Made by a program: the position numbers and the translations under genes. The notes under the pieces are model-generated. The model saw nothing but the letters and a program-made list of their open reading frames with translations, did not search any database and was not told the DNA's origin. This document shows positions 3,778 through 19,997 of a stretch of 41,285 nt of DNA, in pieces. This stretch comes from Bacteroidales bacterium (GTDB lineage Bacteria > Bacteroidota > Bacteroidia > Bacteroidales > FEN-979). The stretch is taken from the NCBI GenBank assembly GCA_030681475.1, contig JAUXWT010000043.1, forward strand, positions 1 through 41,285, in the 5' to 3' direction. The number at the start of each line of letters is the position of its first letter. Position 1 is the stretch's first letter.

Positions 3778-3808
3778 TTGGAGTATTCCCAAATAGTATA
3801 TACCTTTG
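3778..3808 (+). promoter_or_regulatory. Bacteroidota-type promoter of the toxin-antitoxin operon
   Basis: TTG at 3778-3780 is followed after 20 nt by TACCTTTG at 3801-3808, matching the -33 TTG / -7 TAnnTTTG consensus of this phylum. The antitoxin ATG lies 22 nt downstream at 3831. Confidence 0.7.
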
Positions 3809-3830
3809 TAGTGCGAAAAAAAGAAATCCC

Positions 3831-4395: not shown

Positions 4396-4404
4396 ACCAC
4401 GCCA

Positions 4405-4502: not shown

Positions 4503-4738
4503 GATTCAATTATTTGTCAGTGGTTGAAAGATGAGAAAATAATGAGAATCTGACTGAGTCTGCATCAACTTTAGGATAAAAGGCAGATTATATAAACGGT
4601 TGCGAAAGCATTTTAGAAATCCAATTGATAGCATTGCGATAATTATTAACATTTCAGACAAAAAGGTATCTGGCCCCTGTTTGCAGGAGTCTTTTGCGCT
4701 GCTGGTATCATAATTAAAACCCATTTCTTTTTATCAAA
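4503..4738. other. Gene-less stretch downstream of the toxin
   Basis: No gene is supported. A 72-codon minus-strand frame (4724-4506) has no recognisable family, and its composition does not argue for coding. The 3' end of the second IS91 remnant may extend slightly into this DNA from 4739. Confidence 0.3.
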
Positions 4739-5668: not shown

Positions 5669-5797
5669 CCATACCGATAATGGAAAAAAAAACAATAGAC
5701 TTTCTTGCCAAATATTTGAATGAAATAGATGGTCAGGAATTTTAGATAAATGCAAGGCTGAATTTCCATACGAATCAAGTAATTAAAAACACCACAA

Positions 5798-6825: not shown

Positions 6826-8178
6826 TTAACGCTTTTCATCCGGTTTTGTGTGCCTTCCGTTAAGAAAGATATTCCGGTAATGCCAATAATTCAGCGACAG
6901 GATCCAGGTTGCTGAAAGACTGCGTGTATTCCACAGGGTTTTGACATTTTGGAGAAGGATGTTTCGAGGAGAGAAAATTTTCTTTTTTGCCATAGTCATC
7001 ACATAATCCAATTCCGCGGTGGAGATGGCCGGATGTTTGATGGTGGGTTCAAAAAAGTCGTATCGTCGCCAATCGGAAGGGAAATTGTTGTAAAGCAGGC
7101 GGTTTTCGGCAACGATTTTGTCAAAAAGCTGTGTGCCGGGGAGCGGCGTCAGCACGGATGTCTGGAATGAATCAGCGCCGCAGTTCACGGCAAACCGGGC
7201 ACGCTGAATGATGGTTTCGGAAGTATCCGTATCCCAGCCGAAAATCAGGCCGGCGATCACGCCGATGCCATGTTTCTGGATCGTTTTGAAAATACGGCGA
7301 TAGTTACTGGCGCCCCGGTTGAGGTTGAGTTTCTTGTTGGCCTCCATCAACTGATTTTCCGATTCCGCTTCGATCCCCAGGAAGATCATCCGGCAACCGC
7401 TTCGGTAGGCAAGTTTAAGCAGTTCCTCATCATCGGCAAAATTTATGGAAGACTGCGACAACCAGTATTTTTTAATCCCCCGCCGGATAATCCCTTCAAA
7501 CAACTCCCTTGCACGTTCCTTTGATTCCCTGCTTTGTCCGATGATGTTATCGTCAACGAAAAAGACAAATTTTTGGGGAATTTCCTCCAGTTCATCCAGA
7601 ACTTCTTCGATGGGCCGGAAACGGTAATGACGGCCGTTGAAGGCTGAAACACTGCAGAAACTGCAGTTCATCGGGCATCCGCGTGTGGTTTGAATGCTGG
7701 CGCAGATGTATCCCGGATGGAACAAGTCGCGGCGCGGCCTGGGCTGGCTGATCTCCTTGGCAAACCGGCCCTCGTAAAAGCTTTTCAGATTTCCTGATTC
7801 GAAATCCGCAATAACCTGTGCCCATACCGGTTCTGCCTCCCCCTGGACCAGCGAATCGACAAATTGCAGGGTTTCCCCGGGCATCATTGAGGCATGGATT
7901 CCGCCCATGACGGTTTTTATGCCTTTTTCGCGGTAGATCGCCGCGATCTCATAAGCGCGTGGAGCCGTGCTGGTGAAGGCGGTTAGGCCGACCAGATCAG
8001 CTTCGTAATATTTAAAAGTGCGAAAATTTTCATCGATGATCTTGATCTTCCAGCCCGGCGGTGTCAACGCTGCGACGATACCCAAACTTAACGGCTGGTT
8101 CCGCGTGGCACGGTTGATGTGGAACCCGGGCCGGAGCTGGTTTGCAGGATTGATGAGGAGCAGGGTTTTCCGTTTCAT
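6826..8178 (-). CDS. B12-binding-domain radical SAM protein, paralog 1 (450 aa)
   Basis: Class B-type radical SAM enzymes join an N-terminal cobalamin-binding Rossmann domain to a SAM-cleaving TIM barrel, and many methylate or rearrange unactivated carbons. Here residues 1-150 show the cobalamin-domain pattern (LLLINPAN, PLSLGIVAALTPPGWKIKII, MGGIHASMMP, VQGEAE) but no DxHxxG, so cobalt would be His-off. The [4Fe-4S] cysteines are Cys168, Cys172 and Cys175 (RGCPMNCSFCSV). Barrel motifs FVDDNIIG, CRMIFLGIEAESENQL and VIAGLIFGWDTDT follow, then a C-terminal helical domain ending in LNYWHYRNIFL. It is the last gene of a four-paralog minus-strand array and starts only 4 nt after paralog 2 stops, so the two are co-translated. 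Substrate unknown. Confidence 0.9.
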   Translation of the reverse strand: MKRKTLLLINPANQLRPGFHINRATRNQPLSLGIVAALTPPGWKIKIIDENFRTFKYYEADLVGLTAFTSTAPRAYEIAAIYREKGIKTVMGGIHASMMPGETLQFVDSLVQGEAEPVWAQVIADFESGNLKSFYEGRFAKEISQPRPRRDLFHPGYICASIQTTRGCPMNCSFCSVSAFNGRHYRFRPIEEVLDELEEIPQKFVFFVDDNIIGQSRESKERARELFEGIIRRGIKKYWLSQSSINFADDEELLKLAYRSGCRMIFLGIEAESENQLMEANKKLNLNRGASNYRRIFKTIQKHGIGVIAGLIFGWDTDTSETIIQRARFAVNCGADSFQTSVLTPLPGTQLFDKIVAENRLLYNNFPSDWRRYDFFEPTIKHPAISTAELDYVMTMAKKKIFSPRNILLQNVKTLWNTRSLSATWILSLNYWHYRNIFLNGRHTKPDEKR

Positions 8179-8182
8179 AGGC

Positions 8183-9544
8183 TCAGTCGAGTAACCAGTT
8201 CCTGGGCTTTTTGATGTGCCCGAAAGCCATGCTGCGATAGTTCCAGTTGCTCATGTACGACCAGTATGCCGTGATAAAACTACCGGTCCGCCACCAGGTT
8301 TTCAGCATCCTTCGTTTCAGGAAAGCGGGCTCATAGACTTTGTCGAACACTTTAAAGATATAATCCTGCATCTCTTTCCTGTCCATGGTAGTTGGATTGA
8401 ACACCAATGATTCATAACCGTAATGTTGCCAATCCTCCGGGAAGTTATTCAAGACAAGGCGTCCCTCCCGTTTCATCCTTTCGAACAAGCCGGTTCCCGG
8501 CAAAGGGGTGAGCAGGGTGGCCTGGATCGAATCAGCCAGACACGCCCGGGTAAATTTCACCCGGTGGTCAATTCGTTCAATCGTATCATTTTCCCACCCG
8601 AAGATGAAGCCGGCGATCACGGCAATGCCATATTTGTGCATCTTTCTGAATACGTCGTCGTACGAATTGACCCCCATCTTTACATTAAGCCGTTTGTTAG
8701 CGCCCTGCAACTGGTCTTCGCGCTCCGATTCAATCCCGATGAAGAGCATCCTGCAGCCGCTTTCAGCCGCGTATTTTAAAACATCCTCATTGTCTGCCAC
8801 ATTCAGTGACGCCTGTCCGATCCAGTCTTTGTTAATGCCGCCGCTGATCATGGCTTTGAAGAGTTCTATCGCACGATTTTGGGCTTTTGAAGTGTTACCC
8901 ACGATGTTATCATCCAGGATAAAAATATTTTTCTGAGGGATCTCTTTCATCTCTGCGATCACTTCATCGATAGGGCGGTAGCGGTACTGGCTGCCGTTGA
9001 ATGTCGTTACAGAGCAGAAATCGCAGTTCATCGGGCATCCCCGTGTCGTTTGTACCGATGCAAAGATATACCCGGGGTGAAAAAGGTCCCTCCGTGGTTT
9101 GGGCGATGCGATGAGATCGCTCAGGGGGCCTTTGTAGACGCGTTGCAGACTGTTGGTTTCAAAATCGCTGATTACCTTGGGCCATATGGTCTCCGCTTCT
9201 CCAATTACTACCGAATCAACATATTCCGCAGCTTCATCGGGACACATGGAAGCATGGATTCCCCCGATTACTGTTGGGATTCCCTTATCCCGGTAAAGCT
9301 GTGCCAGTTCATATGCCCGGGAGACCGTTGAACTGAAGGCCGTAAATCCTACAAGATCCGCTTCATAATACCTGAAGTTCCGGAAATTCTCATCAATGAT
9401 CTTCACCTTCCAGTCCGGGGGAGTGAGTGCGGCAATAATGCCCAGGCTCAGCGGCTGATACCGCGTATCCCTGTTCACAATGAACCCGCTCCCGCTTTTG
9501 TTGGCGGGATTTATCATGAGTAAGGTTTTCCGTTTAACAGACAT
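8183..9544 (-). CDS. B12-binding-domain radical SAM protein, paralog 2 (453 aa)
   Basis: Same architecture as its neighbours: a cobalamin-binding domain (MINPANKSGSG, PLSLGIIAALTPPDWKVKII, IGGIHASMCP, VVIGEAE), then the radical SAM barrel with Cys170, Cys174 and Cys177 (RGCPMNCDFCSV), IFILDDNIVG, CRMLFIGIESEREDQL and VIAGFIFGWENDT. A C-terminal region with ATLLTPLPGTGLFERM and NWNYRSMAFG follows. Compared with paralogs 1, 3 and 4 the same blocks are kept while substrate-facing segments vary, as expected for related but distinct reactions. ATG at 9544-9542 precedes KRKTLLMINP. The 105-nt upstream gap contains an octamer repeat array and no clear promoter, so transcription from further upstream is likely. 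Confidence 0.9.
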   Translation of the reverse strand: MSVKRKTLLMINPANKSGSGFIVNRDTRYQPLSLGIIAALTPPDWKVKIIDENFRNFRYYEADLVGFTAFSSTVSRAYELAQLYRDKGIPTVIGGIHASMCPDEAAEYVDSVVIGEAETIWPKVISDFETNSLQRVYKGPLSDLIASPKPRRDLFHPGYIFASVQTTRGCPMNCDFCSVTTFNGSQYRYRPIDEVIAEMKEIPQKNIFILDDNIVGNTSKAQNRAIELFKAMISGGINKDWIGQASLNVADNEDVLKYAAESGCRMLFIGIESEREDQLQGANKRLNVKMGVNSYDDVFRKMHKYGIAVIAGFIFGWENDTIERIDHRVKFTRACLADSIQATLLTPLPGTGLFERMKREGRLVLNNFPEDWQHYGYESLVFNPTTMDRKEMQDYIFKVFDKVYEPAFLKRRMLKTWWRTGSFITAYWSYMSNWNYRSMAFGHIKKPRNWLLD

Positions 9545-9606
9545 GATTTAATAAAGTTCAAAATTCAAATTGCAAAGTCAAAATGCAAATCACTGCAAAT
9601 TTTCAT

Positions 9607-9646
9607 TTTTCGCCATTTCGCCATTTCGCTATTTTGCTATTTTGCC
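9607..9646. repeat. Octamer tandem repeat, ATTTCGCY family (5 units)
   Basis: Five consecutive 8-nt units (TTTTCGCC, ATTTCGCC, ATTTCGCT, ATTTTGCT, ATTTTGCC) fill the gap between radical SAM paralogs 3 and 2, ending 3 nt before the paralog 3 stop codon. The same unit occurs at 20052-20107 and 32911-32942. Confidence 0.8.
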
Positions 9647-9649
9647 ACC

Positions 9650-10999
9650 TCAATAACGGTACTCACTCGGTCTTTCCATCCCCACACTCCGGTAGTTCAG
9701 ATTCGAGTTCCATGCCCATACGGCGCTTCGCAGGCTACGGGTGTTCCAAAAGGTACGCAAAAATTTCATCCTGATCGTGTTCATGCTGCAGATCTGCCGG
9801 TATGCATGGTTTGTCGATTCTGCCAACTCCTTTGGTGTCATCCTGGCGGGATTGAACACCACATCCGAGAAGTGAAAGTGCTGCCAGTCCTTCGGAAAAT
9901 CATGGCAAAGCAGTCTGTCCTCCTTTTTGAATTTCTCAAACAGTCTTGTGCCGGGCAACGGGGTCATCACACTGGCCTGGGTTACATCAACACTGCTGCT
10001 GAGAATATATTTAGTGCGGTTTTTCAAGGATGTCGTCGTGTCGCTGTCCATGCCATAAATAAATGCCCCCAGAACAGCGATCCCCTCCCGGTGGACCATG
10101 CGGAATGCTTTTTTGTAATTATCAACCCCCAGGCGCAGGTTGACTTTTTTATTGGAGTCCTTGAGCGCTTCGGCATTTTCGGCCTCAATGCCGATCAGCA
10201 ACATGCGGCAACCGCTCCTTTTGGCAAGTTTTAACAGTTCCGGCTTTTCAATGATGTTGAGCGATGCCTGGGCAAACCACTCTTTTTTCAGGTTCCGGCG
10301 GATCATTCCTTCAAAAACCGCTGCGGCATGATCTTCAGCGGCTTTATTGTAGCCGATGATGTTGTCATCCACAAAATAGAGCAACTGATGAGGAACTGAT
10401 GCGATTTCATCAACGACCGATTGAGGATCGCGCAAACGGTACTGGTGCCCGTTGAAGGCAGGTACAGAGCAGAACTCACAATCCATCGGACATCCTCTTG
10501 AAGTTTGGATGGAGGCAAAGAAATATCCCGGGTGAAAAAGATCGTGACGGGCAGGGGGAGCGCTTTTCATATCTGACAATCCCGAAGTATAGGTTTTCTG
10601 AAGCCTTCCGGCCTGAAAATCATCCAGCAGCCTGTTCCAGGAACCTTCTGCTTCGCCGATCACGACCGAATCGACAAACCGGATCGCTTCATCAGGCATG
10701 GAGGAGCCATGTATCCCGCCAAGAACGACGGGAATACCCTTTTCACGGTATATTGCAGCAATTTCATAGGCCCGGTTCACCGAGGCGGTTACCGCGGTGA
10801 TGCCGACCAATTCGGCTTCCCGGAAGCGGAATTCCCTGAAGTTCTCATCCAGGATCTTGATGGACCATTCAGGCGGAGTAAGCGCAGCCACTATTCCCAG
10901 CCCCAGCGGGGCCTGCTTCGACTCACGGCGCAGGAGATAACCCTTGCGGTAGGTGTTTGCAGGATTGATCAGCAGAAGTCGTTTACGGCCGGGATTCAT
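9650..10999 (-). CDS. B12-binding-domain radical SAM protein, paralog 3 (449 aa)
   Basis: Third member of the array, collinear with the others. The cobalamin-binding domain has LLLINPANTYRKG, LGIVAALTPPEWSIKILDEN and LGGIHGSSMP (note GS where the others have AS). Radical SAM cysteines are Cys170, Cys174 and Cys177 (RGCPMDCEFCSV). LLYFVDDNIIG, CRMLLIGIEAENAEAL, LGAFIYGMDSDT and a C-terminal segment ending NLNYRSVGMERPSEYRY follow. The C-terminal NYRS...ERP ending is shared with paralog 4, so 3 and 4 look like the closer pair. ATG 10999 starts MNPGRKRLLLINP, with the usual short charged lead before LLLINP. A TACATTTG on the minus strand (11011-11004) is too close to the start codon to be a convincing -7 box. 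Confidence 0.9.
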   Translation of the reverse strand: MNPGRKRLLLINPANTYRKGYLLRRESKQAPLGLGIVAALTPPEWSIKILDENFREFRFREAELVGITAVTASVNRAYEIAAIYREKGIPVVLGGIHGSSMPDEAIRFVDSVVIGEAEGSWNRLLDDFQAGRLQKTYTSGLSDMKSAPPARHDLFHPGYFFASIQTSRGCPMDCEFCSVPAFNGHQYRLRDPQSVVDEIASVPHQLLYFVDDNIIGYNKAAEDHAAAVFEGMIRRNLKKEWFAQASLNIIEKPELLKLAKRSGCRMLLIGIEAENAEALKDSNKKVNLRLGVDNYKKAFRMVHREGIAVLGAFIYGMDSDTTTSLKNRTKYILSSSVDVTQASVMTPLPGTRLFEKFKKEDRLLCHDFPKDWQHFHFSDVVFNPARMTPKELAESTNHAYRQICSMNTIRMKFLRTFWNTRSLRSAVWAWNSNLNYRSVGMERPSEYRY

Positions 11000-11081
11000 A
11001 TAACAAATGTATGAATTTCTTTTGCCATGTTATCCCATTAGTTGATTAAAGGGCAGAGTGGAGAATTGAACCGGTCAGCAT

Positions 11082-12437
11082 TTATCTGTAATAATGGATA
11101 GGTCGCTCAAGCATTATGCTGCGGTATTGGAAGTTGGCTTTTAATGCCCAGATAGCAGTTTCCAGGCTTTTTGTATTGTATAAGGTCTCCAGGAAACGGA
11201 GCCTGATCCGCATGGGGTGGTACATTAGTCTCCACCCTTCAGTCATTCGGTTTGCCAGATCTTCCGAAGCAATGTGTGGATGTCGGATAACGATGTCTTC
11301 CCAGTTGTAATATTGCCAGTCGTGAGGAAAATTCTTGCAGGAGAGCCGGTCTTCTTCCTGCAGACGGTGGCTGAGTTTTGTGCCCGGGTATGGGGTCAGC
11401 ATGCTGGTCTGGATGCAGTCAATGTTCAGTTTTGAAATAAACTTTGCCCGGTTCGTGATATCCTGCGGATGGTCGGTTTCCATGCCAAAAATAAAAGTGC
11501 CCAATACCCCGATCCCTTGTTTGTGAAACTCCGAAATAATGTGACGATAATTTTCAACCCCTTTCCTCAGATTGTTCTTCTTGCCTGCCGATTTCAATCC
11601 TTCGGAACTCTCAGTTTCAAATCCCACCAGTAGCAATCGGCAACCACTGGCAGCCGCAAGTTTCAGTGCCTCCGGGTCGTCTGCAAAGTCAACTGAAGTC
11701 TGGGAGAACCAGTTAAATTTTAGCTTCCTGTTGATGATCCCCCTGAATAACTCCTTTGCCCGTTCACGATGATTTTGGTTGATCCCTCCAATGTTGTCAT
11801 CCACGAAAAAAATATTGCGCTTGTCGCCATGAAAGGCTTGCAGTTCATCCAACACCTCTTCAATGGGGCGCATGCGGAAATGCCCACCATTGAAAGCAGT
11901 GACAGAACAGAAATCGCAATTCATCGGGCATCCCCGCGAGGTTTGGACTGAACGCCAGTAATACAGGGGATATTGCAGATCATGCCGCGGGATAGGCTGG
12001 TTTCCCATCTCGGTAAAATCACCGTAATACACCTTTTTCAACCTTCCGGCTTCAAAATCGGTCAAAACCGTGGCCCATATATTCTCAGCCTCGCCAACAA
12101 CCACAGCATCCACATACTGCAATGCCTCTTCCGTACACATTGAGGCATGGATTCCACCCATCACCACCGGGATTCTTTTTTCACGGTAAACCCGGGCGAT
12201 TTCGTAGGCCCGAAACGCATTTGGGGTGTACGCAGTAAGACCTACCAGATCAGCTTCACGGTACCTGAAGGTCTGGTAATTCTCATCCAGAATCCGTGTT
12301 CTCCATGGTCCAGGGGTGAGTGCGGCAATGATTCCGAGGCAAAGTGGTGGAATTTTATCATGGTACTTATGTGCCAAACCAACCCGGTAACGGCTTACCG
12401 GGTTGATCAGCAGCAATCTGGGATTTATTCTATTCAT
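11082..12437 (-). CDS. B12-binding-domain radical SAM protein, paralog 4 (451 aa)
   Basis: First gene of the array in transcription order. The open frame extends upstream to 12710, but ATG 12437-12435 (MNRINPRLLLINP) is chosen: it gives 451 aa, matches the paralogs' N-termini, and avoids overlapping the divergent ACP gene. The cobalamin domain has LGIIAALTPGPWRTRILDEN and MGGIHASMCTEEA. Radical SAM cysteines are Cys170, Cys174 and Cys177 (RGCPMNCDFCSV). FFVDDNIGGI, CRLLLVGFETESSEGL and LGTFIFGMETDH follow. It keeps EADLVGLTAY but has QYPLYYWRS where the other three have FHPGY(I/F)(C/F)AS, so it is the most divergent copy just before the cluster. Only ~90 nt separate its start from the ACP start on the opposite strand, so promoter and regulation are likely shared. 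Confidence 0.9.
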   Translation of the reverse strand: MNRINPRLLLINPVSRYRVGLAHKYHDKIPPLCLGIIAALTPGPWRTRILDENYQTFRYREADLVGLTAYTPNAFRAYEIARVYREKRIPVVMGGIHASMCTEEALQYVDAVVVGEAENIWATVLTDFEAGRLKKVYYGDFTEMGNQPIPRHDLQYPLYYWRSVQTSRGCPMNCDFCSVTAFNGGHFRMRPIEEVLDELQAFHGDKRNIFFVDDNIGGINQNHRERAKELFRGIINRKLKFNWFSQTSVDFADDPEALKLAAASGCRLLLVGFETESSEGLKSAGKKNNLRKGVENYRHIISEFHKQGIGVLGTFIFGMETDHPQDITNRAKFISKLNIDCIQTSMLTPYPGTKLSHRLQEEDRLSCKNFPHDWQYYNWEDIVIRHPHIASEDLANRMTEGWRLMYHPMRIRLRFLETLYNTKSLETAIWALKANFQYRSIMLERPIHYYR

Positions 12438-12500
12438 TAAATGAGTGGTTGTGCAACGTACCGCCAAATTAAGTTTTATTTCCGTTAGTGCAAAATTTTT

Positions 12501-12508
12501 TACCTTTG
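12501..12508 (+). promoter_or_regulatory. Candidate -7 box (TACCTTTG) for the ACP operon
   Basis: TACCTTTG matches TAnnTTTG and lies 20 nt before the ACP start codon at 12529. No TTG is found at the expected -33 spacing, so the call rests on the -7 element and position alone. Confidence 0.45.
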
Positions 12509-12528
12509 CCATCTTAAAACAGTTGAAA

Positions 12529-12762
12529 ATGAACATGGAAGAGTTTATAAAAAATATTGAGGCTGAATTTGATGATCTCAAGCCCGGAGTATTGAAGGCC
12601 GACAGCAATTTCAGGGAATCATTTGAATGGAATTCGATCAACGCCCTGATTTTAATCGCCATGGTGAAAACCGAGTATGATGTCACCCTGTCAGCCGATG
12701 ACCTGATCAAATCAAAATCAGTAAAAGATATCTATTCACTGATCGTAAATCGTCAATCGTAA
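12529..12762 (+). CDS. Acyl carrier protein (77 aa)
   Basis: ACPs carry acyl chains on a 4'-phosphopantetheine arm. This 77-aa acidic protein has the expected helix pattern, with the candidate modified Ser36 in SFEWNSINALILIAMV (WNSI in place of the common DSL) and the recognition-helix region VKTEYDVTLSADDL. ATG 12529 is preferred over an upstream in-frame ATG at 12445, since the extra N-terminal residues are unlike ACPs and the TACCTTTG box lies between them. It starts an operon-like run with KAS III 21 nt downstream, so it probably serves that pathway and not bulk fatty-acid synthesis. The last six residues (IVNRQS) and the stop codon are encoded by the heptamer repeat array at 12743-12773, which suggests the original C-terminus was overwritten. 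Confidence 0.87.
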   Translation: MNMEEFIKNIEAEFDDLKPGVLKADSNFRESFEWNSINALILIAMVKTEYDVTLSADDLIKSKSVKDIYSLIVNRQS

Positions 12763-12773
12763 ATCGTAATTCG
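12743..12773. repeat. Heptamer tandem repeat, TCGTAAA family (4 units plus)
   Basis: Units TCGTAAA, TCGTCAA, TCGTAAA and TCGTAAT are followed by a partial TCG. The array overlaps the end of the ACP gene, whose TAA stop is inside the third unit, and fills most of the 21-nt spacer before KAS III. The same family is seen at 14659, 34009, 34745 and 36472. Confidence 0.85.
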
Positions 12774-12783
12774 CATATTCTCC

Positions 12784-13839
12784 ATGGCTCTGTTTTCACT
12801 TCCGGGGATAAAAATTAGCGGTATATCGGCGGCCGTTCCGAAGAACAAGGAATCCAATGCCGACTATACATGGATTTCTGTTAAGGAACGTGAATCGCTG
12901 ATGAAGAACATCGGCGTAGAGACCCGCAGGGTAGCTGCGAAGGGAACCACTACCTCAGATCTGTGTGTCATAGCCGCCGAAAAATTAATGGACGAGCTGA
13001 ACTGGGATCGTTTCGAAGTGGAATTGCTCATCTTTGTTTCGCAATCGCGCGACTACCTCGTGCCAACTACGGCCTGCATCGTACAGGACAGGTTGGGACT
13101 GCCACACTCCTGCGTGGCGATGGATATCGGGTTGGGTTGTTCCGGCTACGTTTACGGACTATCCGTCATTGGAAGCATGATGCAACAGGGCGCCATAAAA
13201 AAAGCGCTCCTGATGGTGGGTGATATATCAACACTGACAACCTGTTACCGTGATAAAAGCACCTATCCGTTATTTGGAGATGTAGGCACCGTTACTGCTC
13301 TGGAGTTTGATGCAGCAGCGCCCAAAATGCATTTCAACCTTCAAACCGACGGCTCGGGATACAAAGCGCTGATGATCAAGGATGGGGGCGCCCGGAATGT
13401 CATGTCGCGACAATCGTTCGACATTAAAAAAGTGGGCAAAGGGATCTACCGTTCCCGTCTGCACCTGGAGCTCGACGGCATTGAAGTCTTCAACTTCACC
13501 CTGCGCGAAGTGGTTCCGAACATAAAAAAATTATTAACCCATACCGGGGAATCCCTTGCTGAAATTGATTTTGTTGTGTTTCACCAGGCTAATCGCCTCA
13601 TCAACGAAACCCTTCGGAAGATGCTGAAACTTGAAGCGGAGAAAGTACCTTATTCCATCAGGGAATTTGGCAACACCAGTGGCGCTTCAGTTCCGCTGAC
13701 CATGATTGCCGCACTGAGGGAGCCCCTGGTGACCGGCAGGAAAAAACTGCTCCTCTCGGCTTTTGGCGTTGGATTATCCTGGGGCTCCGCAATAGTTGAG
13801 ACTGACCGCATTTGTATTCCTGACCTGATCGAAGTATGA
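12784..13839 (+). CDS. 3-oxoacyl-ACP synthase III (FabH-like KAS III), 351 aa
   Basis: KAS III enzymes join an acyl-CoA starter with malonyl-ACP by decarboxylative condensation. The Cys-His-Asn triad is complete: Cys119 in MDIGLGCSGYVYGL, His267 in VVFHQAN and Asn297 in REFGNTSGASVP. FGDVGTVTALE and the glycine-rich ending LLSAFGVGLSWGSA also fit the family, as does the 351-aa length. Housekeeping FabH usually sits with other fatty-acid genes. Here the gene is between a dedicated ACP and an SDR reductase in a glycan cluster, suggesting it makes one specific short 3-oxoacyl chain. Its TGA overlaps the SDR start by 4 nt (ATGA), so the two are translationally coupled. Confidence 0.92.
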   Translation: MALFSLPGIKISGISAAVPKNKESNADYTWISVKERESLMKNIGVETRRVAAKGTTTSDLCVIAAEKLMDELNWDRFEVELLIFVSQSRDYLVPTTACIVQDRLGLPHSCVAMDIGLGCSGYVYGLSVIGSMMQQGAIKKALLMVGDISTLTTCYRDKSTYPLFGDVGTVTALEFDAAAPKMHFNLQTDGSGYKALMIKDGGARNVMSRQSFDIKKVGKGIYRSRLHLELDGIEVFNFTLREVVPNIKKLLTHTGESLAEIDFVVFHQANRLINETLRKMLKLEAEKVPYSIREFGNTSGASVPLTMIAALREPLVTGRKKLLLSAFGVGLSWGSAIVETDRICIPDLIEV

Positions 13840-14594
13840 TGGATGAATTCTCATTGTCCGGAAAAACGATCCTGGTCACCGGCGCCTCGTCAGGCATCGG
13901 TCGACAGGCAGCCATCCTGGCCGCAAAGCATGGAGCCACCCTGGTTATTACCGGCCGGGACAGTAAACGGTTGCAGGAAACCCTTGACCAACTCGTAGAA
14001 GAACGTGACGCGTCACCTGTCACGTGTCACCTGTCACGCGTCACGGAGCTAACGATCGAATCCGAAATGGACGACCTTGTTTCCAGCCTCCCCGTCCTCG
14101 ACGGCATCGTACACTGCGCCGGCATAGTCGGCCCCCTGCCCGTCAAGTTCATCACCCAGGCCGATATTGACCGGATGTTCGGGATCAACTACCATGTTCC
14201 CGTCAATCTTACCGGAAAAATCCTGCGGAAGAAAAAATTATCAGACGGCGCATCCATTCTGTTCATGTCAACCATCGCCACCCGGAACCCGTACTTTGGC
14301 GGCGCATTGTACAGCGGATCAAAGGCAGCGCTCGAAGCCTATTCCAAAACCCTGGCGCTTGAAATGGTCGCCAAAGGGATCCGGTCCAACTGCATCATGG
14401 CAGGATTGGTTGACACGCCCATGATCGAAAATCCGTCGGAAAAGAATATGCAGGAAGAGGCGCTTGAACGATATTTGAAAAGGTACCCACTCGGTATCGG
14501 TAACCCTAAGGACGTCGCAAACGCCGTCGTTTTTTTTATGTCGGATGCCTCGAAATGGATTACGGGGACATCGTTGATCATGGGAGGGGAGTAG
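13836..14594 (+). CDS. SDR-family 3-oxoacyl-ACP reductase-like protein (252 aa)
   Basis: Classical short-chain dehydrogenase/reductase of FabG type, expected to reduce a 3-oxoacyl-ACP to the 3-hydroxy form with NAD(P)H. It has the nucleotide motif VTGASSGIGR (residues 14-23), CAGIVG (94-99) and the catalytic Ser145, Tyr159 and Lys163 (FMSTIA, LYSGSKAAL). A C-terminal GTSLIMGGE stands in for the usual G..l.vDGG ending. Coupling to KAS III (ATGA overlap) supports a joint pathway. Oddity: residues about 57-70 (ERDASPVTCHLSRV region) are encoded by six heptamer units (14005-14046). This is where FabG proteins normally have the short loop and strand before the conserved D-L-T or E-L-T, so the repeat has been absorbed into the frame between helix and strand. 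All catalytic motifs remain, so the enzyme may still work. Confidence 0.88.
   Translation: MMDEFSLSGKTILVTGASSGIGRQAAILAAKHGATLVITGRDSKRLQETLDQLVEERDASPVTCHLSRVTELTIESEMDDLVSSLPVLDGIVHCAGIVGPLPVKFITQADIDRMFGINYHVPVNLTGKILRKKKLSDGASILFMSTIATRNPYFGGALYSGSKAALEAYSKTLALEMVAKGIRSNCIMAGLVDTPMIENPSEKNMQEEALERYLKRYPLGIGNPKDVANAVVFFMSDASKWITGTSLIMGGE
14005..14046. repeat. In-gene heptamer array, GTCACNN family (6 units, 42 nt)
   Basis: Units GTGACGC, GTCACCT, GTCACGT, GTCACCT, GTCACGC and GTCACGG run without interruption inside the SDR gene. The unit is the reverse complement of the GTGACNN array just after the same gene (14602-14643). The total of 42 nt keeps the reading frame. Confidence 0.88.
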
Positions 14595-14601
14595 GAAGTG
14601 C

Positions 14602-14643
14602 GTGACTGGTGACGCGTGACACATGACGCGTGACACGTGACGC
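14602..14643. repeat. Heptamer tandem repeat, GTGACNN family (6 units, 42 nt)
   Basis: Units GTGACTG, GTGACGC, GTGACAC, ATGACGC, GTGACAC and GTGACGC start 8 nt after the SDR stop codon. The array is inverted relative to the in-gene array at 14005-14046 and the same length, so transcripts could fold the two together. Confidence 0.88.
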
Positions 14644-14658
14644 AAAGCAGATGATTAT

Positions 14659-14679
14659 TCGTAAACCGTAAATCGTAAA
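14659..14679. repeat. Heptamer tandem repeat, TCGTAAA family (3 units)
   Basis: TCGTAAA, CCGTAAA and TCGTAAA lie directly upstream of the GT2 start codon (14686) and 15 nt after the GTGACNN array, so two repeat families share one intergenic gap. Confidence 0.8.
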
Positions 14680-14685
14680 TTATTA

Positions 14686-15609
14686 ATGTTATCTACTGTA
14701 AAATATTCAGTCGTAGTTCCGGTGTTCAACAGCGAGTCTTCGCTTGAAGAATTGTTTACCGGCCTGAAGGCCGTTTTTGATGCACAGCAGGAACAATTTG
14801 AGGTGGTTTTCGTGGAGGATAACAGCAAGGATCGAAGCTGGGAGATCATCGCTAACCTGAAAAAACTTTACCCGGATCATGTTACCGCAATAAAGCTGAG
14901 TAAAAACTTCGGCCAGCACAATGCAACATTCTGCGGGTTCAGCTTTGCCAAAGGGGAGCTGATCATCACCATTGATGATGATCTGCAAACCCCGCCTTCG
15001 GAGGTTACGAAACTGATCGGCGAATACAACCGTACCGGCGCCGATCTGGTATATGGCTACTATGGCCGGAAAGGACATTCACGGATCAGGAACCTTGGAA
15101 GCCAGTCGCTGAAAACTTCAGCAAAGGTGTTTCATAACTCCCCCGGCGAAGGCTCTTCATTTCGATTGTTAACATCTGATCTTGCCCATAAGATCCTTCG
15201 TCATGAACAGAATTTCATTTTTCTTGATGAAGTGCTGTTATGGTATACCAACGACCTTGCCTTTGTGGAGGTGGCGCACCTGCCCAGGAAATACAAACAA
15301 TCGGGCTATTCTCTTCCGGCGCTGTTCAGGCTTTTTGCCAATGTCGTGCTCTATTATACCATGGTTCCGCTGAAATTCCTGGTTTATGGAGGTTTTCTCA
15401 TTTCACTGGTGACCTTTTTCATAGGGATTTATTTCATCGTCAAAAAAATGGTTTATAATGTCCCCCTTGGATTTACCTCCCTCATCGTGACCATCCTGTT
15501 TTCAACCAGCATCATATTATTCAGCCTTGGCGTTCTCGGCGAATACCTCAGCAGGATCTACCAGGTGCAAAACCGCAAACCGCCATACTCCATCAAGAAA
15601 ATTATTTGA
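14686..15609 (+). CDS. GT2 glycosyltransferase, polyprenyl-phosphate sugar transferase type (307 aa)
   Basis: GT-A fold family 2 glycosyltransferase similar to GtrB/ArnC/DPM1-type enzymes, which load a sugar onto undecaprenyl phosphate at the cytoplasmic membrane. Visible are the nucleotide-binding start YSVVVPVFNSESSLEEL, VEDNSKD (43-49), KLSKNFGQHNAT, and the metal-binding DDDLQ (97-101). Two C-terminal membrane segments follow (about residues 220-290: LVYGGFLISLVTFFIGIYFI and LIVTILFSTSIILFSLGVLG), ending in EYLSRIYQVQNRKPPY, a typical tail for this group. It lies between the SDR and GNAT genes in the same direction. A role in assembling a lipid-linked glycan intermediate fits the flippase and aminotransferase nearby. 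The sugar donor cannot be told from sequence. Confidence 0.88.
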   Translation: MLSTVKYSVVVPVFNSESSLEELFTGLKAVFDAQQEQFEVVFVEDNSKDRSWEIIANLKKLYPDHVTAIKLSKNFGQHNATFCGFSFAKGELIITIDDDLQTPPSEVTKLIGEYNRTGADLVYGYYGRKGHSRIRNLGSQSLKTSAKVFHNSPGEGSSFRLLTSDLAHKILRHEQNFIFLDEVLLWYTNDLAFVEVAHLPRKYKQSGYSLPALFRLFANVVLYYTMVPLKFLVYGGFLISLVTFFIGIYFIVKKMVYNVPLGFTSLIVTILFSTSIILFSLGVLGEYLSRIYQVQNRKPPYSIKKII

Positions 15610-15666
15610 ATGCAAACAATGCAGGCCATTATCCGCCCGTCCGCCCTTTCACCAACACCTAAGTAA

Positions 15667-16344
15667 ATGAAATACACCCAATACGGCATATCTTTTAACC
15701 TCCTCAAAGAAGAGGATATCGAGATGGTCAGACAATGGAGAAACGATCCGGTTGTGTCTGGCAATTATGAATACAGGGAGCACATCACGCCGGAAATGCA
15801 GCAGGAGTGGTTCAAATCGGTCAACAATATCAATAACCTCTATACGATCATCGAATACCAGAGAGAGAAGATCGGGGTCATCAACATAAAGAATATCAAC
15901 TGGGAAGAACGTGTTTGCGAGGGCGGAATTTTTTTCCCCGACCCGAAGCACCATCAATCCTTTATCCCGGCCGTGGTTTCATACATCACCACCGAGATCA
16001 TTTTCAAAGTTTTTGAGTGGAACATCAGCTATGCGCATGTGCTGAAAGAAAATAGAAGTGTGCAAACATTTGTAAAAATGCTGGGTTATGAGCTGATGCC
16101 CGGGCAGGAAGATGTTAACAACCAGCAATATCAGGTCACCGTCGGTTCATTTGAAAAGAATGTCCCAAAGATCAAAAAAGCAATTTCAGCGCTGATGGGG
16201 AATGACACACGGGGAGTATTCCGGATCGAACGACACGAATTTTCCGACCCGGTCGTCCTGCAATGGGAAGAAAAGGTGAAGACAAGCCGGTTTATCGTGA
16301 AGGTTGAAACCACTAGTGAAGGCAGGTTTTATTACTTCTCCTGA
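15667..16344 (+). CDS. GNAT-family N-acyltransferase-like protein (225 aa)
   Basis: The first ~160 residues follow the RimJ/PseH-like GNAT pattern: LLKEEDIEMVRQWRNDPVV at the start, IIEYQREKIGVINIKNINW, GGIFFPDPKHHQS, and a late strand-helix pair (SYAHVLKENRSVQTFVKMLG) that normally contacts the acyl donor. In glycan clusters such enzymes N-acylate amino sugars. Here it could transfer the chain made by KAS III and SDR from ACP or CoA (inference). The C-terminal ~65 residues are an extension not seen in minimal GNAT proteins. Its last 13 nt overlap the end of the convergent sulfotransferase gene. ATG 15667 precedes the family start by 10 residues, which is reasonable. Confidence 0.75.
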   Translation: MKYTQYGISFNLLKEEDIEMVRQWRNDPVVSGNYEYREHITPEMQQEWFKSVNNINNLYTIIEYQREKIGVINIKNINWEERVCEGGIFFPDPKHHQSFIPAVVSYITTEIIFKVFEWNISYAHVLKENRSVQTFVKMLGYELMPGQEDVNNQQYQVTVGSFEKNVPKIKKAISALMGNDTRGVFRIERHEFSDPVVLQWEEKVKTSRFIVKVETTSEGRFYYFS

Positions 16345-17405
16345 GCAGCCACTGCACTTTTTTCGGAAAAACGGCTGTAGATCTTTACAAGTTTCGGCAG
16401 GTTCAGTGATAACCAGCGGCTGCTCCGGTATGGCAGGAACGAACCCCATTGCATCAGCCTGAACAGGATCTTTCCATATATGGCCATGGGGAGGGACTTG
16501 ATGTATAGCTTCATGCTGAATTTAGTCGTCTTCCTGCTGTAACCCATGATATCCGCAGTTTTACCTGCGATCTGGTCAGCTATCTTTACCTCGAGTCCGT
16601 TCAACTGGGTTTTCCACAGGTCCATCCTGCCCGTGTTGACCGGGTACATCAGACTTTTATGGATGTTCCCGATCGCCGGGTCAAGGAAGGCTTTCAACAA
16701 TTCCTCCTTTTTTTTGTAAAATTCAAACACCTCAGGAACATATGGAATGCTGAGGAAAGCGCACAGTTCACGGAACGCTTCATGCGGTTTTGTAACAAGG
16801 TCTTCATACCGGATGATGTAAAACCGGTCGGGAAACCTGTTCTGGCAGGCCAGGAACAACTTGGTGACATACACCCACCGTGCGATCTGAAGTGTCAGTA
16901 CCGGCGCCTCGAGTTTTACCTTTTCAAGATTCTTGATAGAGACATAATTATCCCTGTAATCACGGATAATGCAAATAAACCACGCTTTTGGAAAGATCCT
17001 GATCAGCCTCTTCATGTAAACTGAATAGACAGGGTTTTTATCCCCAACCAGCCTGATCTCCTGCTTCGGGAAAACAGACGAGGAGTGTTCGTTGAGCTTG
17101 ATCAAGAGATCCTGGATGGTGCAGTTGTATTCCATTTTCAGCAGATCTTCCGTGAATTGCTCCTGGTTGATCTTCAGGTTTTCAATCTTTTTACCATTGA
17201 ATACATTGGGCTTGAAAACGTGGTCAATAAATGTTAAAAGATGTGCTTTGTCCCATGTTTTTACATGTCTGAACTTCTGGTATAGCGGCAGGAAAATTGG
17301 CAACTCAGGAGGAATCTTTACGTTCGGGTGTGCGTCAAACAATGTTTTAAGCAAAGTAGTTCCCGATCGGGGCCTGCCAAGGATGAAAAAAAACGGGACA
17401 GCCAT
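16332..17405 (-). CDS. Sulfotransferase family protein 1 (357 aa)
   Basis: PAPS-dependent sulfotransferase fold. The 5'-phosphosulfate loop is GRPRSGTTLL (residues 10-19). The 3'-phosphate binding segment is RDYRDNYVS (148-156). VGDKNPVYSVYMKR (120-133), YEDLVTKPHEAF and a NTGRMDLWK segment near the C-terminus also match the family. It would move sulfate from PAPS onto a glycan or lipid hydroxyl or amine. It is a paralog of the next gene upstream (17484-18587), with collinear blocks such as DAHPNVKIPPE and the C-terminal GSFLPYRSSRWLS / GSYLPSGISLWLS. No signal peptide is seen, so it acts in the cytoplasm. The stop codon overlaps the GNAT gene by 13 nt on the other strand. Confidence 0.87.
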   Translation of the reverse strand: MAVPFFFILGRPRSGTTLLKTLFDAHPNVKIPPELPIFLPLYQKFRHVKTWDKAHLLTFIDHVFKPNVFNGKKIENLKINQEQFTEDLLKMEYNCTIQDLLIKLNEHSSSVFPKQEIRLVGDKNPVYSVYMKRLIRIFPKAWFICIIRDYRDNYVSIKNLEKVKLEAPVLTLQIARWVYVTKLFLACQNRFPDRFYIIRYEDLVTKPHEAFRELCAFLSIPYVPEVFEFYKKKEELLKAFLDPAIGNIHKSLMYPVNTGRMDLWKTQLNGLEVKIADQIAGKTADIMGYSRKTTKFSMKLYIKSLPMAIYGKILFRLMQWGSFLPYRSSRWLSLNLPKLVKIYSRFSEKSAVAAQEK

Positions 17406-17483: not shown

Positions 17484-18587
17484 CTATTGCCTCTGCGCCT
17501 CTGCGTCTCTGCGGTTTATCTTCCTGACAGCGAAATAATGCCATGTCCTTACCAGCACCAGCAACCTGACCGACAACCAGAGGCTGATACCCGACGGCAG
17601 ATAGGAACCCCATACATAAAGCTTAAAGATCAAGTACCCGTATATTGTCATGGGCCTCGATTTCAGCCAAAGCCGCAGATTAAATCCTTTTTCTGCCTGC
17701 TCATACCGGAAGATGCCGGCGTATTTTCCGGCAACAGCATCAGCCATCCGGATCTCTCCGGGCGTAAGTTCTTTTTTCCATTGCTCCATCCTGCCTGTGT
17801 TTATGGGGTTCATCAGGCTGCCGTGAACACGCTCAACGAGCGGGCTGTCATATGTTTGAAATGTCTCCTCCTTTTTTTTGTAAAAATCGAAGACCGAGGG
17901 CTCAAATGGGATACCGATGAACCTGCAAAGTTCTTCAAGCACCGCCGATTTGTCCGATACCAGATCTTCATACCTGACGATGTGGAACTTTTCGGGGTGT
18001 CTTTTTTTACACTTCAGGAACAACCTGGCCACATACCGCCAGCGGTAAACCTGCAGCGTGAGGATGGGCGCCTCGAGTTTAAGGTCGCTCAATTTACGCA
18101 TTGAGACAAAATTGTCACGGTAATCGCGTATAATGCAAATAAACCGGGCATCGGGGAAAATTTTCAGGAACCGTTCCGTATAGATGGAATATACCGGGTT
18201 CTTATCTCCGATCCTGAGGATCTCCTGCTTTGGAAAGAGGGAGAACCCCTGTTCATTCAGCTTCTTTAAAAAATCCCGGATGGTTCCTTTATGTTTGAGC
18301 GTCATCAGGTTGGCAGTGAATTCTTCGCGATCTATTTTAAGATTTTCCAGCGTCCGGTGAATAAACACATTATGCTGGAAAATAAATGCCACGAAAGATT
18401 GGATCGCCTGTTCATCCCAATCCTTCACCTTCCTGAATTTCTGGTATAATGGCAGCATGATAGGGAATTCAGGCGGTATCTTCACATTTGGATGGGCGTC
18501 AAAGAGGGTGCTCAGCAATGTTGTCCCGGAACGGGGACGCCCCATGATGAAAAATATCGGTACTGTATGCTGGTTGCTGCTTTCCAT
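17484..18587 (-). CDS. Sulfotransferase family protein 2 (367 aa)
   Basis: Paralog of sulfotransferase 1 with the same motifs: GRPRSGTTLL (residues 16-25), RIGDKNPVYSIY, RDYRDNFVS (154-162), RYEDLVSDKSAVLEEL and NTGRMEQWKKEL. The open frame reaches back to 18653, but ATG 18587-18585 (MESSNQHTVPIFFIMGRP) is chosen. The extra upstream residues are translation of the CTCTGCGN repeat at 18601-18624, and the paralog starts just before PFFFILGRP. The C-terminal tail NRRDAEAQRQ is likewise a translation of a repeat array (17491-17514), so the natural end has been replaced or extended. The two genes probably act on different positions or acceptors. Transcription from the flippase side is likely (same strand, about 90 nt gap). 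Confidence 0.87.
   Translation of the reverse strand: MESSNQHTVPIFFIMGRPRSGTTLLSTLFDAHPNVKIPPEFPIMLPLYQKFRKVKDWDEQAIQSFVAFIFQHNVFIHRTLENLKIDREEFTANLMTLKHKGTIRDFLKKLNEQGFSLFPKQEILRIGDKNPVYSIYTERFLKIFPDARFICIIRDYRDNFVSMRKLSDLKLEAPILTLQVYRWRYVARLFLKCKKRHPEKFHIVRYEDLVSDKSAVLEELCRFIGIPFEPSVFDFYKKKEETFQTYDSPLVERVHGSLMNPINTGRMEQWKKELTPGEIRMADAVAGKYAGIFRYEQAEKGFNLRLWLKSRPMTIYGYLIFKLYVWGSYLPSGISLWLSVRLLVLVRTWHYFAVRKINRRDAEAQRQ
17491..17514. repeat. Octamer tandem repeat, CTCTGCGN family (3 units) inside the sulfotransferase 2 tail
   Basis: CTCTGCGC, CTCTGCGT and CTCTGCGG are read on the minus strand as part of the C-terminal RRDAEAQR of sulfotransferase 2. The partner array is at 18601-18624, so this gene is bracketed by the same repeat in the same orientation. 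Confidence 0.85.
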
Positions 18588-18600
18588 TTGGTAATACTTT

Positions 18601-18624
18601 CTTAGCGTCTCTGCGCCTCCGCGG
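18601..18624. repeat. Octamer tandem repeat, CTCTGCGN family (3 units) upstream of sulfotransferase 2
   Basis: CTTAGCGT, CTCTGCGC and CTCCGCGG lie 13 nt upstream of the chosen sulfotransferase 2 start codon. They match the array at the gene's other end. Confidence 0.8.
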
Positions 18625-18677
18625 TTGAACTTGCTATATTGGCGGTTAACCAAACCTGATGTAACAAAAGTAGTAAA

Positions 18678-19997
18678 TCATCCGGTTTTTGGCCTGAATT
18701 TAAAGCGGTTTTTTATATCCCGCAAAAAATGAAAATCACTGGCCCTGAGTCTGAAGATTTCGTTTAGTGGCATTCTGACCATCCTGGAATAGATGAAGAG
18801 AAAGATGATTGAACCAACAGCGTAGCTTACATTGGTTGACCAGGCCGCGCCAATACCCCCATAACGGGGAATCAGGAACAGGTTGAGTATAAAGTTGATG
18901 AAGAGGGCAGGCATAAAAGCGTATATGGCCAATTGCGGTTTTCCCATACCGGTCAGGCGGCTGTTCAGGATACGGAACCCAAGCAGGATCAGGATTCCTG
19001 GCAATACAATCTGTATCATGGCTACACTTTTAACAAATTCATCTCCGAAAACCAGCGGAACCAGGTAAGGGGCGATAAAAAATATGAGGATTCCGGCAAC
19101 CAGCCCGATAAGCAGTGAAACCCTGAATATGGAGGCAACGGTACGGTGAACGAATTTATCGTCGGTGGTGTTTGCGCTTCGGCTCAACACGATTGATTCG
19201 ATGGCAAACGGGATGTGCCACATCTGTTCGGCAATTTGCATCGCGAGTGAATAAAACCCAACCTCCTCGAGGGTCGAGAGTTTTTTCAGCATTAAAATAT
19301 CAAACCGGTAATTAAGTTGCATGATGAAAATCGCGACGGCATTTACCAACCCCAGTTTGATCATGCTTTTCATGATCCCCTCGTGATATTTCCAGGTAAT
19401 GTTATACCTGAACTGAACAATCACCATCCGGTAAGTAATGAAAAACATAATGAAGTTGGCCAGGGCAAGCGCCACAAATGCCCCAAGAACCGACATCTTC
19501 AACCCCCAGACAAAAAGGATGGTAAGGAGCAATGTTATGATCGTGGGTCCGGCATTGATGATGCTTGCCTTTTTGATATCCTCTTTTCCCAGGAAAATCC
19601 CGCCGGCAAAGACATTGGTGAGCAGGAGCGGTATGGTTACCAATACCAGGACAACGATCAGCGGGTCAAAAGATTGACTGTCGGAAAAAAAATATACAAA
19701 TCCGCAGATGATGATGCTCAGCATGCTTGTCCATAACAAAAGCAGGAACAGCGCGGAAATTATATGGTCTTCGGGCAGCAGTTTGTTGCCGATATGATAA
19801 ATGGCGCTCCGGCGTATGCCAAGTTGTGTAAAACCAATGACCATGACCGGCACGACGATGATGGCCGAATACAAACCAAACCCTGCTGCCCCGAGCAATC
19901 GTGTAAGGATAACCCCGATCGCGAGATTGCAAAAAGTCACCATGAGGTTGCTGCCCAGTATGCTTAGAATATCACGAAAATAGGTTCTCTTCGCCAA
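18678..19997 (-). CDS. Oligosaccharide flippase family protein (Wzx-like), 439 aa
   Basis: Polytopic membrane protein with about 12-14 hydrophobic segments and the polysaccharide-synthase/MATE-like pattern of O-antigen and capsule flippases, which move undecaprenyl-linked oligosaccharides across the inner membrane. Typical features are an N-terminal NLMVTFCNLAIGVILTRLLG followed by AAGFGLYSAI, an internal NYRFDILMLKKLSTLEEVGF segment with Asp near the membrane, YSLAMQIAEQMWHIPFAIES, and a late GFRILNSRLTGMGKPQ. Length is normal. It is divergent from the aminotransferase gene, with an octamer-repeat-filled spacer, and upstream of the two sulfotransferases on the same strand. This supports the reading of the region as a surface glycan locus. 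Confidence 0.88.
   Translation of the reverse strand: MAKRTYFRDILSILGSNLMVTFCNLAIGVILTRLLGAAGFGLYSAIIVVPVMVIGFTQLGIRRSAIYHIGNKLLPEDHIISALFLLLLWTSMLSIIICGFVYFFSDSQSFDPLIVVLVLVTIPLLLTNVFAGGIFLGKEDIKKASIINAGPTIITLLLTILFVWGLKMSVLGAFVALALANFIMFFITYRMVIVQFRYNITWKYHEGIMKSMIKLGLVNAVAIFIMQLNYRFDILMLKKLSTLEEVGFYSLAMQIAEQMWHIPFAIESIVLSRSANTTDDKFVHRTVASIFRVSLLIGLVAGILIFFIAPYLVPLVFGDEFVKSVAMIQIVLPGILILLGFRILNSRLTGMGKPQLAIYAFMPALFINFILNLFLIPRYGGIGAAWSTNVSYAVGSIIFLFIYSRMVRMPLNEIFRLRASDFHFLRDIKNRFKFRPKTG

Follow-up and report, generated by a model that had tools for sequence, protein, structure and literature searches.

A Bacteroidales gene cluster joins a row of B12-type radical SAM enzymes to a gene set of the N-acyl-sugar kind

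What do several B12-type radical SAM enzymes act upon when their genes stand head to head with those of an acyl carrier protein (ACP) and its partners? The question is raised by a Bacteroidales genome (assembly GCA_030681475.1), of which the whole stretch of 41,285 nucleotides analysed here (contig JAUXWT010000043.1, positions 1 to 41,285) is called the window. B12 radical SAM enzymes are able to functionalise unreactive carbons, and to our knowledge few have known substrates. Four collinear minus-strand genes, which an earlier note had read as B12-type radical SAM enzymes, are open and intact, and encode proteins A (6826..8178, 450 aa, PF04055 at 61.4 bits and PF02310 at 39.5 bits, with the motif CPMNCSFC and an AlphaFold model of pLDDT 90.8), B (8183..9544, 453 aa, 53.7% identical to A), C (9650..10999, 449 aa, 48.6% identical to A) and D (11082..12437, 451 aa, 51.7% identical to A), with pairwise identities of 45-54%. 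The Radical_SAM domain (PF04055, by Pfam cut-off) and CxxxCxxC (by motif inspection) are present in 4/4 of these proteins, and the B12-binding domain PF02310 is above its Pfam cut-off in 4/4, which are accordingly predicted to bind cobalamin. No NCBIfam cut-off was reached by any of the four, and equivalog identity with HpnJ, HpnR, BchE, the ladderane-type enzyme or AprD4 was rejected (best score 110.8 bits versus cut-offs of 360-650). The ladderane-type profile TIGR04072 resembles the array in that it describes a B12 radical SAM enzyme assigned to lipid biosynthesis, but the window proteins score 70-97 bits versus its cut-off of 360. The genome also encodes a B12-dependent methionine synthase domain. 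Control of the locus by B12 through a cobalamin riboswitch was considered and dropped, no such element having been found in the three sources searched (the window and the related loci L106 and L046).

The array is divergent from a plus-strand operon across a gap (12438..12528) that had been put at about 90 nt and measures 91 nt, from the start of D at 12437 to the start of the ACP gene at 12529. The Bacteroidota -7 consensus is TAnnTTTG, which is fitted by TACCTTTG at 12501-12508, and alignment finds this element conserved among close relatives, for example L038, L039, L041 and L045. The order read earlier for the operon (ACP, then KAS III, SDR, GT2 and GNAT) holds, and all of these products pass Pfam cut-offs: the 77-aa ACP (12529..12762, PF00550 at 30.6 bits versus 20.8, serine motif WNSINAL); a FabH-like beta-ketoacyl-ACP synthase or KAS III (12784..13839, PF08541 and PF08545, with GCSG, FHQAN and FGNTSGAS; best solved relative 4efi, 3.9e-62); a FabG-like 3-oxoacyl reductase of the SDR kind (13836..14594, PF13561 at 149 bits, with TGASSGIG and YxxxK), for which FabG-type NCBIfam profiles are among the top matches and none is above its cut-off among the matches listed; a polyprenyl-phosphate glycosyltransferase of the GtrB/ArnC kind (GT2, 14686..15609, PF00535); and a GNAT (15667..16344, PF13302) that is probably a sugar N-acyltransferase. 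The motifs, which we take to be those of their respective families, as with CxxxCxxC in the radical SAM proteins, are intact. GT2 is similar over its full length (residues 3-303 of 307) to the solved GtrB-like protein sll0501 (5.6e-38) and also to solved ArnC (9e-36), and its top NCBIfam match is ArnC, below the equivalog cut-off. The GNAT matches the profiles of SpeG, PseH (59.9 bits, under the cut-off of 93.1) and FdhC, and its likeness to spermidine acetyltransferases is at least equal to its likeness to sugar enzymes.

The end of the locus, placed at 16344 in the earlier note, is too short, because four further genes share the conserved locus: sulfotransferase 1 (16332..17405, minus strand, PF13469 at 108.7 bits), sulfotransferase 2 (17484..18653, minus strand, PF13469 at 112.6 bits, 54.9% identical to the first), a Wzx-type flippase (18678..19997, minus strand, PF13440 at 53.9 bits, and PF01943) and a DegT-family transaminase (20118..21248, plus strand). 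The last is identified as WecE, the dTDP-4-amino-4,6-dideoxygalactose (Fuc4N) transaminase acting on dTDP-4-keto-6-deoxyglucose, by NCBIfam equivalog cut-offs (PRK11706 at 513.6 versus 375; TIGR02379 at 461 versus 434.85), with solved WecE-type relatives at about 1e-115, and RmlB is above its cut-off in the same genome. Fatty acyl-AMP ligase (FAAL) and TMTC were not found on the window's contig. A TMTC-like GT-C protein is encoded on another contig (C5) of the genome, and in several relatives a TMTC-like protein stands beside FAAL; TMTC_DUF1736 (PF08409) is above its cut-off in L119 (30.5 versus 27) and unreported in L106, which has TPR and a weak PMT_2 match.

The sulfotransferases bring in one alternative for the chain. 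FAAL together with KS, KR, ACP, ST and TE is the logic of olefin synthases. Some of this logic is covered by the available part of PMC11837247. Among solved structures, sulfotransferase 1 is best matched by the CurM sulfotransferase (1.2e-14), and FAAL, ACP, KAS III, SDR and a CurM-like sulfotransferase could by the same logic make a 3-sulfooxyacyl chain that the radical SAM enzymes decorate before transfer. Such a route is very unlikely: tyrosine sulfotransferases follow close behind CurM (2.2e-13), the window sulfotransferases adjoin the GNAT and flippase genes and not the ACP gene, and no thioesterase was found among the window proteins scanned, a subset of the open reading frames.

Comparative genomics indicates that the array and the operon belong together. 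The radical SAM type is found in 23 of 247 sampled genomes of the order, this one included; KAS III is also present in 19 of the 23 and lies within 12 kb in 17 of them, so that homologs of the array occur mostly with the ACP/KAS III genes and the tie proposed in the earlier note is borne out. Genomes with both genes number 17 if the contig-end fragments of G055 and G171 are excluded. For the order, 40/247 genomes match KAS III at E ≤ 1e-80, and 31 were counted (at least 52% identity, plus those two fragments), the nine weaker matches being dropped, including G069, which has its radical SAM gene on another contig. Within the family, 33/43 genomes match protein A at E ≤ 1e-60, of which only 21 are of the array type (E ≤ 1e-106) and the other 12, relatives at about 34-42% identity, were not counted; family KAS III was counted at 58% identity or more plus a fragment in G002, and G019 (38%) was dropped. 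Duplicates of named loci (13 of 20 family stretches, recognised as the same contigs by their length) and L070-L078 were left out, and the radical SAM tree is built from proteins no shorter than 380 aa, minus several duplicate stretches. Fisher p-values ignore relatedness, and the linkage therefore rests on counts by family: both genes are held by 11 families.

The linkage was recovered from two independent seeds, the radical SAM side and the KAS III side. The arrangement recurs in close relatives, with radical SAM and KAS III proteins 65-91% identical, and in a rearranged version in distant relatives, at about 43-65% identity, and is therefore not due to chance. Among 48 loci with KAS III (at least 52% identity, one per contig), partners are SDR in 45, GT2 in 39, GNAT in 38, radical SAM in 35 (inflated, since a radical SAM gene had been the seed for 24 of the 48), sulfotransferase in 31, flippase in 20, FAAL in 20, DegT in 18 and TMTC-like protein in 13; small genes, the ACP above all, are under-counted because gene calling relied on a simple script that takes the longest ORF, and several loci either are truncated at a contig end or belong to near-identical genomes (L057, L066 and L069). 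In L053, L057, L066 and L069 the array adjoins the GNAT gene, not the ACP gene. A guess from gene lengths that rmlA, rmlC and rmlB lie beside DegT in these four loci was rejected, as the sequences are those of unrelated flanking genes, presumably YicC-, guanylate-kinase-, NadD- and quinone-reductase-like.

Not every genome keeps the pair: KAS III is absent at threshold from 4/23 radical SAM genomes, 12/31 KAS III genomes have no radical SAM gene at threshold, the array and KAS III of G012 are on different contigs, and relatives labelled as belonging to other phyla (L052, L056, L059 and L062) have single radical SAM copies, the operon being absent from the stretches that were read. The first, third and fourth of these would fit a shared envelope-glycan island in which array and operon are neighbours with separate products, the radical SAM enzymes acting, for example, on a lipid or polyprenol. 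This is distinctly unlikely, for the linkage outlasts rearrangement in the 11 families, and the co-directional operon itself has been entered by a radical SAM gene in both L113 and L114 (KAS3-SDR-GT2-rSAM-GNAT). The radical SAM and ACP/KAS III genes form one conserved unit. The relatives labelled as other phyla were dropped as a clue to the substrate because their gene contexts look unrelated.

Half of this unit has known counterparts. The viosamine island of P. syringae (vioA, vioS, vioB, vioR, acp and vioM), which leads to dTDP-N-(3-hydroxy-1-oxobutyl)-2-O-methylviosamine, likewise supplies a transaminase, KAS III, N-acyltransferase, 3-oxoacyl reductase and small ACP for a dTDP-4-amino sugar, but its methylation is by VioM, its target is flagellin, and radical SAM, FAAL, sulfotransferase and TMTC are not among the genes named in the available part of the source (PMC3927599). 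For the O-antigen of F. psychrophilum, also of Bacteroidota, wfpC-wfpG are the proposed makers of the 3,5-dihydroxyhexanoyl group of Qui2NAc4N and, likened by gene kinds, comprise an ACP, 3-ketoacyl-ACP synthases, a reductase and an acyltransferase for an N-acyl 4-amino sugar; the genes named for this R-group in the available part of the source include two synthases and no radical SAM, and the sugar is UDP-Qui2NAc4N versus Fuc4N at the window locus (PMC6519341). The ACP, KAS III, 3-oxoacyl reductase and 4-aminosugar transaminase of these systems are all present in the window, and its ACP/KAS III/SDR/GNAT/transaminase part belongs to a known kind of N-acyl-sugar kit, as far as the available parts of the two sources describe it (PMC3927599, PMC6519341). 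The earlier note had called the whole set undescribed, which does not hold for this kit and appears to hold for the radical SAM enzymes joined to it, the new element: no published description of the combination was found among the matches listed, with partial coverage of the literature.

The number of radical SAM genes varies from 1 to 4 per stretch across related loci, four being the maximum (in L039 gene A is split in two pieces), and some close relatives are without D alone or without A and C. L046 and L048, for instance, have just A, B and C, and L040 and L041 just B and D. The earlier note had suggested that the four enzymes may act in sequence; given these sets, a fixed, obligatory series of four steps is unlikely. 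Short open reading frames in L118, L120, L130, L135 and L138 have no radical SAM match, are sited where the ACP is expected, and were treated as mislabelled. An adjacent second KAS III gene is found in 1/16 radical SAM loci versus 12/24 loci without radical SAM (p 0.005 over 40 loci), with 1/16 versus 5/16 within the order (p 0.17) and 2/16 versus 5/13 by hand count (p 0.19); as a firm test this comparison was dropped, being confounded by descent and taxonomy, as the p-value within the order indicates. Outside the order, the second KAS III lies beyond the ACP gene, in the position that the array occupies here, in 5/8 class-level loci (picked by hand from 38 with KAS III), which makes a position-specific modification of the carrier-bound acyl chain the likeliest job of the array.

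The nearest solved structures leave some room for a sugar substrate. The top profile match (3e-20) and the top fold match of the predicted model (5.8e-21, TMq 0.76) is AprD4 (6fd2), a radical 1,2-diol dehydratase whose substrate, by its structure title, is paromamine, and since this sugar diol dehydratase is the closest solved structure, a sugar substrate and non-methylating chemistry come into question. The radical SAM enzymes would then be AprD4-like dehydratases (deoxygenation) or C-methylases that form a branched or deoxy sugar from dTDP-Fuc4N or a further glycan residue, with the ACP operon supplying only a plain 3-hydroxyacyl group; the WecE transaminase makes this a nucleotide-sugar locus, and in L094-L097 the neighbours of the radical SAM genes are sulfotransferase, flippase or DegT genes and not the ACP gene. 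However, AprD4 is just 19% identical to the window protein, and nearly as close is a methylase, MgmA (9ccb, 2.7e-20), the glutamine methylase of methyl-coenzyme M reductase, which is the second profile match and the next fold match after two AprD4 chains; MgmA is itself 19% identical and, by its structure title, has a protein substrate. The B12-binding domains in 4/4 proteins and the orientation of the array, which faces the ACP/KAS III end in those close relatives whose contig carries both genes, also argue against action on the sugar, which is unlikely.

The likeliest role of the radical SAM enzymes is thus position-specific modification, probably C-methylation, of the acyl chain before its transfer to Fuc4N, and the chances are about even that the locus makes nucleotide-activated Fuc4N with a specialised acyl group for the cell envelope. 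In the order of steps that we infer, KAS III would condense a starter, either a CoA thioester or one loaded onto ACP by the FAAL common in related loci, with malonyl-ACP, and the SDR would reduce the product to a 3-hydroxyacyl-ACP. Each B12 radical SAM enzyme would then modify one position of the carrier-bound chain, most likely by C-methylation, and the gain or loss of single copies would give strain-specific chains. The GNAT may move the chain onto the 4-amino group of dTDP-Fuc4N from the WecE-type transaminase, the ArnC/GtrB-like GT2 would load the sugar onto polyprenyl phosphate, the flippase would reorient it to the outside, and its transfer to an acceptor may fall to a TMTC-like GT-C protein; the sulfotransferases would add sulfate to a hydroxyl group, either on the chain or on the sugar. 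The earlier label of a glycolipid is not supported, as nothing at the locus identifies the final acceptor. A bolder reading, tentative and on the doubtful side, is that the locus makes a surface glycan of an undescribed class. The modular row of B12 radical SAM enzymes would introduce carbon-carbon modifications, in a pattern particular to the strain, into an acyl group bound to the ACP; displayed on Fuc4N by a polyprenyl-phosphate/TMTC-type route, this group would give the envelope of uncultured Bacteroidales a combinatorial acyl "barcode".

The conserved locus narrows the choice of substrate for these B12 radical SAM enzymes to two kinds of compound, acyl-ACP and dTDP-amino sugar. Either can be prepared in vitro, and because the paralogs occur naturally in sets of 1 to 4, position-by-position tests are possible. 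In some uncultured Bacteroidales, the cluster appears to direct the synthesis of an unusual acyl group, its modification by B12-type radical enzymes and its attachment to a cell-surface sugar. If true, this would take N-acyl-sugar pathways beyond simple hydroxy acids to chains modified by radical chemistry, in a bacterial group that is large and uncultured.

The four radical SAM genes of the array lie intact on the minus strand as A (6826-8178), B (8183-9544), C (9650-10999) and D (11082-12437), and their products (449-453 aa, 45-54% identical to one another) all have B12-binding and radical SAM domains above the Pfam cut-offs and a CxxxCxxC motif. A gap of 91 nt separates the array from a plus-strand operon that encodes an ACP (12529-12762), a KAS III (12784-13839) and an SDR (13836-14594), each with intact motifs, a GT2 (14686-15609) and a GNAT (15667-16344), beyond which the conserved locus adds two sulfotransferases (ST), a Wzx-type flippase and a WecE-type transaminase (gene DegT) that scores above curated cut-offs.

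The link between the array and the KAS III operon, proposed in the earlier note, is real. Scanning with radical SAM D yielded 41 named loci, and a family search yielded 20 stretches, 13 of them on the same contigs as named loci. Close relatives keep the order DegT-Wzx-ST-ST / GNAT-GT2-SDR-KAS III-ACP / radical SAM array, and distant relatives group the same genes differently, with between one and three radical SAM copies. KAS III was used as a second seed to avoid circularity. Among 247 genomes sampled from the order, including this one (KAS III matches of about 52% or more; radical SAM type at E <= 1e-95), KAS III was found in 31 (two of them contig-end fragments) and the radical SAM type in 23: both in 19, radical SAM only in 4, KAS III only in 12 and neither in 212. 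The two genes are at most 12 kb apart in 17 of the 19. Both genes occur in 11 families, while 3 have the radical SAM type alone and 8 the KAS III alone; within the organism's own family (n = 43; radical SAM A matches at E <= 1e-106, KAS III at 58% or more plus one fragment), 19 genomes carry the two together, 2 just the radical SAM type, 8 just the KAS III and 14 neither. In loci L113 and L114 the GT2 and GNAT genes of the co-directional operon have a radical SAM gene between them. The exceptions are genome G012, with array and KAS III on separate contigs, and L043, where radical SAM genes stand at a contig end without the operon.

The locus seems to be split in this genome (4.24 Mb, 111 contigs, of which the window is the entire contig C36). 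To the left of the array, 1798-5755 holds two IS91-type transposase genes and one that we take to be integrase-like. Relatives have on this side genes for a DUF4890-like protein (below cut-off) and a TonB-type receptor, and some of them also one for a fatty acyl-AMP ligase; mobile elements may thus have split the locus here. Another contig, C5, carries a ligase homolog followed by TMTC-like and KsgA-like genes, the order found beyond the array in L046. The ligase, which does not reach the NCBIfam cut-offs, occurs in 20 of 48 KAS III loci, either alone or extended at its C-terminus by a putative carrier domain. Of the stretches clustered, 18 (C5 included) encode the TMTC-like membrane protein, which has TPR repeats; the L119 protein passes the TMTC_DUF1736 cut-off, and the domain is not reported in L106. 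An MBOAT gene is present in six stretches and a neighbouring gene in five (L096, L115, L117, L118 and L123), the one such partner tested being weakly DUF1574-like, below cut-off; their joint occurrence suggests extra O-acylation of the product. L118, a KAS III locus without array-type radical SAM genes, also encodes, among its ligase genes, a 552-aa radical SAM protein (L118:5711-7366) in which a B12-binding domain is not reported.

More distant radical SAM relatives (about 34-42%) occur in many genomes of the family. A separate lipid-type cluster of this genome (L111, C105:1-19900) encodes a FabF-like synthase (TIGR03150, 457 bits, cut-off 493.75; PRK07314, 444.6 over 387), a B12 radical SAM protein near a ladderane-type model (TIGR04072, 325.8 bits, cut-off 360), second and third radical SAM proteins, and what are presumably ACP-like, GT2-like, exporter-like (1291 aa) and phytoene-desaturase-like proteins. 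L107 (C17:1-8716) has, directly ahead of a further radical SAM gene of the B12 type, a gene for a StlD/DarB-like ketosynthase (108 bits against a cut-off of 450) with neighbours presumed to be dehydratase-, thioesterase- and enoyl-CoA-hydratase-like.

A tree of 88 proteins places A, B, C and D in four well-supported groups across close relatives, A pairing with B and C with D. All four are present in the window, L038, L039 (A in two pieces), L042 and L044; L045, L046, L048 and L049 have A, B and C without D; L040 and L041 have only B and D; and no counted stretch has more than four copies. The absence of single copies where the rest of the locus remains argues that each enzyme probably performs an optional, separate step, and against a fixed form of the sequential action suggested in the earlier note.

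A scan of 294 further genomes from the class, mainly of other orders, turned up a KAS III relative in 38 and the radical SAM type in none (both at E <= 1e-95). The radical SAM type is absent from all eight of these KAS III loci that were read, and seven have a second KAS III, which in five (L164, L166, L167, L168 and L171) lies beyond the ACP, where the array stands in the window. Among 40 loci (KAS III >= 50%), 16 have radical SAM genes and 24 do not; a second KAS III is adjacent in one of the former and in 12 of the latter (p 0.005 when relatedness is ignored). Within the order alone the figures are 1 of 16 and 5 of 16 (p 0.17). This pattern favours the acyl chain as the probable substrate, but it is confounded by descent, and in L053, L057, L066, L069 and L094-L097 the ACP is not flanked by the radical SAM genes. 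The predicted structure of A (pLDDT 90.8) is nearest to AprD4, a diol dehydratase, followed by MgmA, TsrM, OxsB and CysS (presumably a methylase), with TokK further down; MgmA, TsrM and TokK are methylases, so that the reaction may be of either kind. We rank C-methylation of the acyl-ACP first as candidate reaction and modification of the sugar second.

The sugar is dTDP-Fuc4N, judging from the identity of the WecE-type transaminase, and RmlB is present in the genome. The GNAT has relatives in PseH and FdhC, with spermidine acetyltransferases at least as close, so its substrate is inferred; the GT2, a GtrB/ArnC-type enzyme, points to polyprenyl phosphate as the likely carrier. The combination of transaminase, KAS III, reductase, N-acyltransferase and ACP is shared with the viosamine island of Pseudomonas syringae, where the proposed product is dTDP-N-(3-hydroxy-1-oxobutyl)-2-O-methylviosamine (PMC3927599). 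The same acylation kit appears in the wfp genes of Flavobacterium psychrophilum (two synthases and one reductase), the proposed source of the 3,5-dihydroxyhexanoyl group of Qui2NAc4N (PMC6519341). The view that the whole set is undescribed thus holds for one half: partial coverage of the literature yielded no description of a B12 radical SAM array joined to an ACP/KAS III sugar-acylation operon. The acylation half is of a known kind, and the radical SAM half is the new addition.
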